From Deuterostichococcus epilithicus (Eukaryota; Chlorophyta; Trebouxiophyceae; Prasiolales; Stichococcaceae), in assembly GCA_033439295.1 (NCBI GenBank), contig JAVTLE010000013.1, positions 2,480,001-2,544,000 on the forward strand: DNA of 64,000 nt, in the 5' to 3' direction. Made by a program: the position numbers and the translations under genes. Under the pieces are notes generated by a model that had not been told where the DNA came from, did not search any database, and saw only the letters and a list, made by a program, of their open reading frames with translations. Position 1 is the stretch's first letter. Each line of letters opens with the position of its first letter. This document shows positions 1-64,000 of the stretch, one piece after another.

Positions 1-2160
1 ACTACTTGAAGAGGGCTGGCTCGCGACACAGGCGACGGCTTTGGCATCGGGTGGTTCAGCCCGGAGGGCGCCACACCGCGCGCTGACCCCACCCCCTGCA
101 CCTTCACCTCCATCACGCCCGCCTGGTGCGGCCCCACGCACTGGACAGCGCATTCCCGAGTGCAATTTCCGAGTGTTATCCCCGAGTTGCACTCGTGATT
201 CTCTTGGATTGAAGTGTAGAATGGCGAGCCGTGCCGGTGCTGCACCGCAAGGTGTGCGCAGCCAACAACCGCACCTAGTCCCGCCGGTTGTCCAAGCGTA
301 GTCGTGGCATTGCTCATGCAGGAACAATGAGAATCTGGGGCGGCTGTCGTGCAAGATCTTGTCGCCGCTGGTGTTTGCGCACGTGCGGGCGGCGTATCCC
401 GGCATGCCGGTGTCAGAGCAGAACTGCCATCCCTTCCAGGTCGGATAGCACCCTGTGGCTACTCAGTCAGGCTCGAGAAGGAGCTGAGACACGGCATGCA
501 CCGTGTGGTAATCCTTTCCGATTGCTGCATTGCACTTGAAGTTACACCTTGCCCCCGAGAACGCTGCTCTGCACGGTGCCATGACGATGTGCCCCGTACC
601 GCCTGCAGTGGGGCCGGTGGCTTTTCATGCACAATGGAGTCATCGGTGGCTTCATGCGCATCCGGCGCGCCCTCCTGGCATCGCTGTCCACAGAGGTGAC
701 CACCAGAGGCCGAGTAAAAGTGAAACTGTATCCAAGTCCATTGCTGTATGGCAATTGTTGTGTCTGATACTGGCATGTTATGATCAAATCATGCTGGTAC
801 ACAGCAGAACGGTTCGAAATCCATCCCGATGCTGCGCAGGCGTTCAACGCGGTGCAGTCATTCCACTCCGACTCCGCAGTCGCCTTTGCAATGTTTCTGA
901 ACCACCTGCCCGACATGCACACGCCGCTGCAGCCGGCGCAACTGCTGGCCGCCATGGAGGTGAGCAGTCCCAGACCTCAGATCGCCAGCGCCTGTGGACC
1001 GAAGACGGTCCTAGCAGGATATTAACAGAAGTCCTGAACAGATCGCACAAGTGAGCAGCGCTGAAATCATGCTGTCCCCTGTATCTGTATGCCTCCATCG
1101 CACTGCACGAGTTGAGGGTTCAAAAGTCCGAGGATCATCTTACTGCATCCCGACAGGCGACGGTGGCGAGCATAACGCGGTTCCAGGAGGAGGCGGGCGA
1201 GACGGAGGTGTCCCTGCTCAACTTCGTGGTCTCGGACGGCGCCACGCTGGTGGCCACCCGCTACGTCAGCCGCGACGACTGCGCCGCCGCCACCATGTAC
1301 TTCGCAGAGGGTGCGCCTTGCCAGTTTCGATAGCGATTGCTTGCAGCGCCTGTGCTCGCACCTGTGCTGCTCCATGCTGGCTTGGACAGCGCTGCCTGTC
1401 AGCCACACGTCCTCCTGACGGAGTTTTGCAAGCGGCTTCTGGATCGAGAAGGCAATGCACCGGCATCAATTCAGATTGTGACGCCGGCAGGGTCGGCCTT
1501 CCGGCGGGCGTCAGAGGTGGTGGGCGCAGACGGCGGTGAAACCAGCAGCCGCTGTGCTGGCGCAGAGTGGCAGACAGACGGGCAGAGCGCCAGCAACACG
1601 GTCACGCCTGCGACTGGGCGCGAGACCAGCATCGCAGGTGCGGGCTCACTGCAGCACCCTCGAGCGTGAGCATGGCAAGCGTTCGGCAGTCACGCGGCGC
1701 CACGTTTTAGACACCTTTTGTGCGACTGGCTAGGCGGCTGCTCGGGAAGGAGATCAATTCAGCCATCTCCGACATGATTGCGGCGCCGTCGAGACAGCCT
1801 CTGTTCTCCTGCGCACTCAAATCTGCAACTTCTTCTGATTGCAGATGCGCAGACGCCCAGGCAGACTCCATGCTGAGCCTTCTGGGGCCGCTTCCGGCCT
1901 GGTTGTTTGCCGTATTAAAACTTGAACCGAGTGCATCACGCCCGCACAGACGAGGCGGAGTACACGCTGACGTACGGCGAGCGCGGCAGCCGCGTGGTGC
2001 TGGTGGCCAGCGAGCCCATCACGCGGTCGGCGGGGCACTGGGTGGCGGTGCCCCGCAACAGCGCGCTGGTGGTCTCCCGCGGCAAGGGCGGCCTGCTGGA
2101 CGTGGTGCAGACGCCGCTGGCGGCCGGCGGCGTGCACCCCCGCCAGCCGGAAGTGCAGCA
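1..2160 (+). CDS. DUG3: Dug3-type class II glutamine amidotransferase domain, 5' partial
   Basis: Six exons: 32-125, 322-439, 609-695, 840-959, 1157-1310, 1950-2160; all junctions are GT-AG with matching phase. The product reads through GDGFGIGWF, DPTPCTFTSITPAW, NCHPFQ, RWLFMHNGVIGGF, SFHSDSAVAFAMF, SLLNFVVSDGATLVATRYVS and VLVASEPITR, a family-typical order for Dug3 and other GATase_4/6 proteins. In yeast Dug3 pairs with Dug2 to hydrolyse the gamma-glutamyl bond of glutathione in the cytosol. The N-terminal nucleophile Cys lies left of the window, so activity cannot be judged. One exon between 1310 and 1950 may be missing, since the expected block after MYFAE is short. The frame meets TGA at 2161, but this TGA overlaps a strong GTGAGT donor; splicing there joins in phase to the WD40 exon at 2598. 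A TGTAA word at about 2456 would fit a separate gene end instead. Confidence 0.85.
1853..1895 (+). repeat. possible ghost of the amidotransferase exon at 1950
   Basis: An AG at 1851-1852 is followed by a stretch resembling the start of the exon at 1950 (acg..aggc..ga.tcc.tgctgag against acgaggcggagtacacgctga), 97 bp upstream. The match is short and gapped; only the spacing, like that of clearer ghosts further right, makes it worth listing. Confidence 0.25.
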
Positions 2161-2597
2161 GTGAGTCCTCCTGGCCCTGTCCTGTCGGGCTTTTTCCAAA
2201 CAACAGATAGGTTCTCAATGCCTGTCTGTGACCGCGCCTGAGGCAACGGAGCCCGTTGCAGCAGCACGGCATCAGCAGCTGCAGAAGCAGCTGGCAGCTC
2301 GGTGTGTGGCTGTGAAGCTGAGCTGTGGACGTCTCGCCAGCCAGTCAGAGGTGCCGGCTCAGACCGCGCTTGTTTGCGAATGGCGCGCGCGTCATTGACA
2401 CGGCTGCAACCCACCTGTGCACTCCCTTGTCGCATGCATTCTCAGGTTGCTTGACTGTAAGTGACCTGCTGTGCAAGGACTCGCTTAAACGGAAACCAAT
2501 TGATGGCGCGCTCACACTCAGCCAGCTGACTTATGCATCGACATTCCACCAGCGGTCGGTCGCAACCGTGCTTACATCCAGACAACTTGTTCTGCAG

Positions 2598-63800: not shown

Positions 63801-64000
63801 CGTCGAGCAACACGTAATGCAGGTCTTGCAGCACCATTGCTTCTTTGCGACAGGAACGTGACATCATCGTCGATGACGTGCGGGTCCGGGCAACAGGGCG
63901 GTCTGTGGAGCTGCCCAAAGCCGGTTCTATCGACAAGGACCCAGGTGAACCTTGTTTCGAGCCGCAGAGTCGATAGCGTCGTGCGTGCCTGCACAGCGCA
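57835..64000 (+). CDS. OXP1: 5-oxoprolinase (ATP-hydrolysing), 3' partial
   Basis: Seventeen exons in view: 57835-57912, 58063-58094, 58264-58417, 58779-58871, 59255-59364, 59819-59951, 60191-60304, 60507-60601, 60844-60981, 61201-61346, 61536-61624, 61742-61908, 62092-62242, 62581-62713, 62988-63121, 63468-63623, 63854-63944; all phases match. Motifs: [15 protein letters not shown] at the N-terminus, [117 protein letters not shown]. The enzyme opens 5-oxoproline to glutamate with ATP in the gamma-glutamyl cycle. The HyuA part is complete; the HyuB part runs off the window. Intron 4 holds a 79-bp tandem repeat, and exon 16 has a ghost. Confidence 0.95.
58957..59114. repeat. 79-bp tandem duplication in 5-oxoprolinase intron 4
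   Basis: Two adjoining copies starting CTAGCGTCACCGTCGTGATG at 58957 and 59036 differ at only a few positions over the 79-bp unit. No relation to a neighbouring exon was seen. Confidence 0.9.
59751..59775 (+). repeat. possible ghost near 5-oxoprolinase exon 6
   Basis: The acceptor context gcgagcaggc of the real exon (59811-59820) recurs exactly 60 bp upstream, followed by accggccggagggc, which also occurs inside the exon. Short but suggestive. Confidence 0.3.
61060..61083. repeat. small palindrome in 5-oxoprolinase intron 9
   Basis: Arms CGTCAGGCC and GGCCTGACG flank six bases; a 9-bp perfect stem. Confidence 0.7.
63367..63400 (+). repeat. ghost copy of 5-oxoprolinase exon 16 head
   Basis: GGCTTCAAGGATGACC (GFKDD) at 63367 repeats the start of the exon at 63468 (GGCTTCAAGGAGGACC, GFKEDQ), 101 bp upstream. 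The acceptor position now reads AAGAG rather than AACAG. Confidence 0.65.

Follow-up and report, generated by a model that had tools for sequence, protein, structure and literature searches.

In a stretch of 64,000 nucleotides of the green alga Deuterostichococcus epilithicus (positions 2480001-2544000 of its contig, analysed as a whole and called the window below), introns carry degenerate copies of the edge of the exon that they adjoin, here called ghosts. These exon-edge ghosts are real and lie far above chance: across 204 kb of sampled sequence, a strong ghost was found in 30 of 463 predicted introns (883 edges), against none with reversed exons. They probably derive from recurrent local direct duplication of about 80-150 bp across splice junctions, in which the copy joined to the exon would be used and the other would decay as intron. 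An earlier reading of the window from its letters alone (the original prediction) had counted at least ten ghosts in six genes, and had proposed to align exon edges with intron interiors; this alignment, run on the 463 predicted introns, yielded the counts above and the offset peak described below, and in the window itself six gene models show ghosts, at about 14 junctions in all.

The sample used for training combined the window (on contig C11) with 100 kb of contig C1, giving 164 kb, and 20 kb of each of contigs C18 and C19 were held out, from a genome of 46.8 Mb in 21 contigs. Genes were predicted with a custom-written, self-training two-strand hidden Markov model, run without annotation or RNA support, which placed 27 models with 397 exons and 370 introns (median 215 nt) on the 164 kb, and learned a CAG|GTGCGC-like donor and a GCAG|G acceptor; GC content in the sample is 69% in predicted exons versus 59% in introns. 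The spliced protein of the Dug2-like gene contains WD40 and Peptidase_M20, other spliced products match protein kinase, PTPlike_phytase and SMC (the latter under the curated cut-off of its family), and light-harvesting proteins (PF00504) are encoded in the genome, with 39 matches, exon by exon. The labels ARP4, 5-oxoprolinase and other gene names come from the original prediction or from reading the predicted proteins, and are presumptive. Some predicted models probably merge adjacent genes, such as the one shared by the kinase junction 17904 and junction 22137.

In the edge test, the 60 nt at either end of an exon (edges shorter than 30 nt being left out throughout) were compared with the exon's own intron and the best ungapped score S was recorded, the controls being the reversed exon, its reverse complement, a length-matched other intron and the intron on the far side. 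At S of at least 14, acceptor edges matched their own intron in 19 of 353 cases, against 0, 0 and 1 for the reversed, reverse-complement and other-intron controls (each of 353), and donor edges in 12 of 351, against 0, 2 and 0 (each of 351); pooled, the controls reach 1/1059 for acceptors and 2/1053 for donors (Fisher 4e-11 and 3e-6). On the far side, exon heads matched the downstream intron in 2/330 cases and exon tails the upstream intron in 3/330. Of 704 edges, gapped alignment recovered 24 at a score of at least 18, a score that one swapped and no reversed control reached. These controls rule out chance and low complexity and, together with the scarcity of far-side matches, indicate that the copies are direct and adjoin the edge that they resemble, rather than being copies of whole exons.

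The signal also appears independently of annotation. Ungapped direct repeats of the window with S of at least 16 peak at offsets of 80-139 (16 in that 60-bp bin), and bins past an offset of 380 hold 0-4, with the exception of two near 1,520-1,700 that hold 5 and 9, for which paralogous genes account in part; the short-offset excess recurs in the 100 kb of C1, a region not picked by the earlier reader. Self-BLAST of the window mostly picked up paralogs, together with GC-rich matches that were long but weak. With all parameters kept as trained on the 164 kb, donor edges of the held-out 40 kb matched in 6 of 90 cases, against 0, 0 and 1 in the controls (1/270 pooled). Five of these matches are strong (S 20-36), all on C19 at offsets of 114-141, and the 20 kb of C18 held one weak donor match (S 15) and no strong ghost. 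Two annotation-free repeats on C19 were read by eye: in one, the acceptor is copied with the exon head and the model calls both copies exon, and in the other, the repeat stops at CAG|GTGGGT, which resembles a donor but is read through by the model as the end of a gene. With the held-out results included, the phenomenon is thus present on three of the four sampled contigs. Clustering of ghosts by gene was absent (24/370 introns, p=0.73, 164 kb).

The copies decay as non-coding sequence. Mismatches between ghost and exon fall on all three positions of the codon (65, 50 and 72 of 302 each, the acceptor match at offset 229, exon 3225, being left out of the count), 12 of the 15 indels in the 24 gapped alignments break the frame, and five in-frame stops occur in 443 ghost codons; coding ghosts were rejected on these grounds. 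Among acceptor ghosts extending to the junction, 10 of 13 retain the AG, and 5 of 8 donor ghosts retain the GT, so that potential decoy splice sites persist. Searched against the 46.8 Mb, the ghost introns of the ARP4-like and Dug2-like genes matched only themselves and the adjacent exon edge, and one spacer from C19 had no second copy in the genome; the origin is thus local where it was searched. At least two copies occur in thirteen introns, for example four in the ARP4-like intron before 42491, with second and later copies accepted at a lenient score of at least 13, at which chance matches are frequent (22 reversed and 45 swapped among 704 edges), so that some second copies are due to chance.

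The offset between ghost and exon edge is confined to a band. Exon-noncoding repeats with S of at least 18 number 1, 5, 12 and 8 at offsets of 25-60, 60-90, 90-120 and 120-150, then 3 (150-200), 7 (200-300, partly series) and 2 (300-400), and at 400-1000 there are none at this score among 43 million control pairs. Strong ghosts lie at 77-150 in 24 of 30 cases, where 22% would be expected under uniform placement (p=2.7e-11), and 22 of 30 fall at 87-145 (18% expected), the range in which the original prediction had put most of them. The median is somewhat lower for acceptors (107, n=17) than for donors (128, n=13; p=0.03). An apparent depletion of offsets divisible by three (1/15 acceptor ghosts with S of at least 18) was gone in the larger set (7/30). 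Ghosts are also tied to long introns: among those of 345-999 nt, 22 of 55 carry one, versus 8 of 405 shorter introns (Fisher 2e-16; three introns of at least 1000 nt were not binned), or 22/55 versus 8/312 when only introns of at least 150 nt are considered (3e-14). Near-side specificity, the local origin of the introns searched and the link with long introns fit a junction-crossing duplication that lengthens existing introns, as had been proposed, and suggest local duplication across splice sites as the way in which many long introns grew.

How would such copies arise? A segment of about 80-150 bp straddling a splice junction would be duplicated locally, in direct orientation and repeatedly, after which the intron would carry its own edge and the exon edge twice. 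As only the copy still attached to the remaining exon could yield the old mRNA, that splice site would stay in use, and the other copy would turn intronic and decay neutrally into a ghost, often with AG or GT left. Further copying of some units would give series of 2-5, and each duplication would lengthen the intron. We infer the duplication event, its direction and the persistence of splicing at the exon-joined site. The duplications may stem from error-prone repair at staggered breaks, which of the known mechanisms is the likeliest to produce short tandem duplications.

Is the whole unit tandem? The original prediction had described it as intron edge plus exon edge, which is clear in some ghosts and collectively, but most intron halves are too decayed to display it. 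In 16 acceptor ghosts, the first 45 bases of the exon are matched at an ungapped identity of 0.60-0.72, which drops sharply at the junction, to 0.45 and then 0.30 in the 30 intron bases before it. Acceptor intron halves are nonetheless collectively homologous (permutation p=0.0002 for the 16 ghosts, 0.0024 in a second test), and 29 ghosts taken together give a Stouffer value of 3.5, with p<0.05 individually in 3/29 and with weak donors (in later donor tests, p=0.019 with n=7, and Stouffer 1.9 with n=12). Full or nearly full units are found at C1:25753 (z=7.2), C1:25120 (z=4.9) and 7456 in the Dug2-like gene (p=0.005). Ghosts with offsets above 250 were dropped from the 29-ghost test and those above 200 from the first permutation test, as were matches staying more than 25 nt from the junction in the former and more than 12 nt in the simulation comparison.

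Several observations weigh against recurrent tandem duplication across junctions. Constraint on the true exon predicts a drop at the junction, but a smaller one than observed for the apparent age: the anchored score is 5.9 for acceptor intron halves (null 4.3), where simulated neutral decay gives 12-18 at T=0.2-0.25, and 3.1 for donor intron halves (null 1.8, simulated 15-21). Acceptor halves fit an older simulated age of 0.3-0.35 better, and donor halves were at first without homology (z=-1.4, n=10). A donor ghost at C19:17844 (offset 124) shows 36 identical nt spanning the donor, after which similarity breaks off at once, with only a gapped, indel-rich intron match beyond (z=3.6), and the ghost at 10331 ends about 24 nt before the junction. 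The original prediction needs a qualification as well: decay of the exon-distal copy holds only loosely in series, and score is not always graded by distance, the far ghost of the Dug2-like gene, for example, scoring 36.0 and the near one 31.0. The ungapped acceptor test gave 0/89 in the held-out 40 kb, hence no replication in that small sample, in which a single acceptor ghost (on C19) is gained by gapped alignment. Ghost introns have a mean length of 429, versus 395 in a length-weighted draw (p=0.26, 164 kb), which cautions against reading causation from length alone, although this null assumes that opportunity rises with length, contrary to the fixed offset. With intron-half homology so weak, full-length tandem duplication is established only for some ghosts, and the C19:17844 pattern leaves room for non-tandem templated copying or for conversion between copies.

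A narrower form of this reading requires no junction-specific process: duplications would have occurred everywhere, mostly in the past, and those at junctions would be recognisable through coding constraint on one copy. We regard it as a serious contender, only a little short of an even chance. In simulated old cohorts (T 0.25-0.35), exon ghosts are visible at an identity of 0.76-0.81 and same-age pairs wholly in introns reach S of at least 18 in only 1-60% of runs. Such cohorts reproduce the identity of the ghosts, the weakness of the intron halves and most of the deficit of intron pairs. Young intron-only duplications do exist (79 bp at 58957, 77 bp at C1:40570), and among young pairs (S of at least 25, identity of at least 85%) the ratio of 6 exon-noncoding to 2 noncoding is not significant (p=0.17); in four further young pairs, predicted exons hold both copies, in some cases probably because a ghost was misread as exon. 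Against this, at offsets of 77-160 there are 33 exon-noncoding and 3 noncoding pairs for a similar opportunity (p=4e-7), or 18 and 3 at S of at least 25 (p=0.0014). Equal 60-nt queries at S of at least 18 likewise succeed for 15/240 exon heads and 7/242 exon tails, as opposed to 0/249 intron tails, 1/249 intron heads and 3/249 intron middles; 10 of 16 weak noncoding pairs (S of at least 13, offsets 90-160) adjoin a junction ghost; and under constant birth, simulated constraint raises visibility by a factor of only about 1.2-1.5. The data speak against duplication at a constant rate combined with simple exon constraint, but are compatible with an old wave. That junctions are a preferred site of duplications of about 80-150 bp (or that conversion with the constrained exon keeps the copies alike), with an appreciable share in intron growth, appears rather doubtful. 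Given the old-cohort simulation, which reproduces most of the pattern, and the non-significant young pairs, junctions may be a special target or the place where old duplications stay visible, and the original interpretation as a whole is partly supported.

Non-tandem templated insertion, in which break repair would place a copy of 35-75 nt of nearby DNA, often an exon edge, in the intron at a distance of about 30-90 nt, with a unit shorter than the offset, would suit the abrupt end of identity at C19:17844, the junction-less ghost at 10331 and the ghost at 8158, whose intron half lacks homology (z=-0.4); rice insertions can match DNA at most 200 bp from the break, according to the account in PMC7407515. 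It is nevertheless unlikely in view of the collective intron-half homology, of the full or nearly full units listed above and of the gapped intron homology of C19:17844 itself, and taken alone it leaves the offset band of 77-150 unexplained. It is more improbable still that ghosts act as functional alternative exons or are what is left of duplicated whole exons: the retained AG and GT, and the in-frame 78-nt copy at C1:25753 that the gene finder reads as exon, would be expected of them, but only the near edge is copied, as seen from the far-side counts, and the mismatch spread, frameshifts and stops reveal no coding constraint on the copy. The layout of copy, spacer and copy also recalls an introner-like mobile element flanked by duplicated target sequence, an origin to which we give hardly any credence, as the spacers compared share little beyond shuffled controls: the 27 of them, set against one another (702 comparisons), score at least 14 once versus 0 when shuffled, with none reaching 16, and the spacer and two introns searched had no copies elsewhere.

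If local duplication across splice junctions is indeed the source, 22 of the 55 sampled introns of 345-999 nt still bear its trace. To our knowledge, intron lengthening without transposons is poorly documented, and ghost edges would amount to fossils of intron growth that can be counted. They would also supply natural decoy splice sites beside the true ones, and thereby a test of why the exon-joined site wins; were junctions truly targeted, splicing or exon chromatin would be linked to DNA duplication.

The closest known case is the potato RdRp gene, in which an intron arose anew when a segment spanning an intron-exon boundary was duplicated (Ma, Lan and Niu 2016, PMC4974935). Here too the copied unit includes the exon edge (19/353 and 12/351, versus the controls), but the potato account describes one event in one gene and a new intron, whereas here the ghost is skipped and the old intron lengthens, in 30 of 463 sampled introns and at donors too; the present case shows the potato type of event on a larger scale and ending differently. 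Intron gain by duplication of an AGGT-containing exon segment (Rogers 1989, Hellsten 2011, as cited in PMC4974935) shares with it local tandem duplication acting with splicing, but there, as summarised, both splice sites of the new intron are exon-derived, whereas ghosts sit inside longer, existing introns and resemble the near edge only; AGGT-type gain was therefore rejected, and the original prediction had rightly set the two apart. In Drosophila, novel introns arose by tandem duplication within coding sequence, one copy of the exon then being used as intron (PMC2891723), at novel positions. Repair of breaks with overhangs produces direct duplications of tens of bp, with no need for repeats (PMC8355091), although the overhangs named there, of about 50 bp, are shorter than the offsets here and that paper makes no use of the word intron. 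Insertions of 10-1000 bp in rice, tandem or matching DNA at most 200 bp from the break (Vaughn and Bennetzen 2014, as summarised in PMC7407515), are alike in size and nearness, with no tie to exon edges in that account. No genome-wide report of exon-edge copies was listed in searches of an open-access library, whose scope mostly excludes subscription journals.

Ghosts of the window are listed in the table below. They belong to the Dug2-like junctions 6589, 7580, 8259, 10105 and 10288, to 17904 and 22137, to 27446 and 28903, to the ARP4-like junction 42491 (four copies), to 44891, and to the 5-oxoprolinase-like junctions 58417, 59819 and 63468 (weak).

Table. Exon-edge ghosts of the window, with one true exon for reference
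Feature	Positions	Strand	Remarks
Acceptor ghost, Dug2-like exon 6589-6762	6470..6559	+	offset 119-121; score 40.5, identity 0.74
Far acceptor ghost, exon 7580-7686	7336..7388	+	offset ~244; one-base deletion; only the adjacent exon matched genome-wide
Near acceptor ghost, exon 7580-7686, with part of intron edge	7434..7519	+	offset 124; intron half homologous (p=0.005)
True exon, M20 peptidase region, joined to retained acceptor	7580..7686	+	gene model; Peptidase_M20 in spliced protein
Acceptor ghost, exon 8259-8387	8152..8197	+	offset 102
Acceptor ghost, exon 10105-10288	9979..10026	+	offset 118
Donor-side ghost, tail of exon 10105-10288	10331..10368	+	offset 104; ends ~24 nt before donor
Acceptor ghost, kinase exon 17703-17904	17952..18013	-	offset 106-109; kinase domain found
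Acceptor ghost, exon 21986-22137	22171..22219	-	offset 77
Acceptor ghost, exon 27270-27446	27538..27569	-	offset 123; score 20
Acceptor ghost, exon 28787-28903	28967..28997	-	offset 87; 90% identical
Ghost 1, ARP4-like exon 42491-42640, weakest copy	41995..42041	+	score 17
Ghost 2, ARP4-like exon 42491-42640	42134..42189	+	offset 357; intron searched genome-wide
Ghost 3, ARP4-like exon 42491-42640	42231..42287	+	offset ~260
Ghost 4, ARP4-like exon 42491-42640	42346..42422	+	offset 145
Donor ghost 1, exon 44700-44891	45007..45048	+	offset 165
Donor ghost 2, exon 44700-44891	45132..45177	+	
Donor ghost, exon 58264-58417	58496..58533	+	offset 116
Acceptor ghost, exon 59819-59951	59725..59796	+	offset 94-96
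Weak acceptor ghost, exon 63468-63623	63361..63385	+	offset 101; S 15

Part of the 8152..8197 ghost, at 8157-8189 (+), is called a 33-nt exon by the gene finder, and if this exon is real it would represent a gained intron, as in the potato case. On C1, a junction-crossing 78-nt duplication, in frame and read as exon by the gene finder (L004:5640-5940, or 25640-25940 of the C1 sample), is possibly an exon extension by the same process.

Other repeats were recorded alongside the ghosts. The 79-bp tandem duplication at 58957-59116, nearly intact (91%) and wholly within a predicted intron, is a rare young intron-only case of this size, and perfect short tandem repeats lie outside predicted exons at 22676-22737 (29 bp x 2.1) and 17414-17453 (19 bp x 2.1). 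Three tandem paralogous genes, at 46619-48662, 52112-54171 and 54327-55654, encode what we take, by the look of the sequence, to be SET/SMYD-type proteins; the first pair is 76% identical over about 2.1 kb and the third about 58%. Telomere-like words are enriched in introns of the 204 kb relative to a simple base-composition expectation (AAACCCT 16 versus 4.5, AGGGTTT 17 versus 5.7), and several degenerate telomere-like copies lie at about 400-450 of L014.

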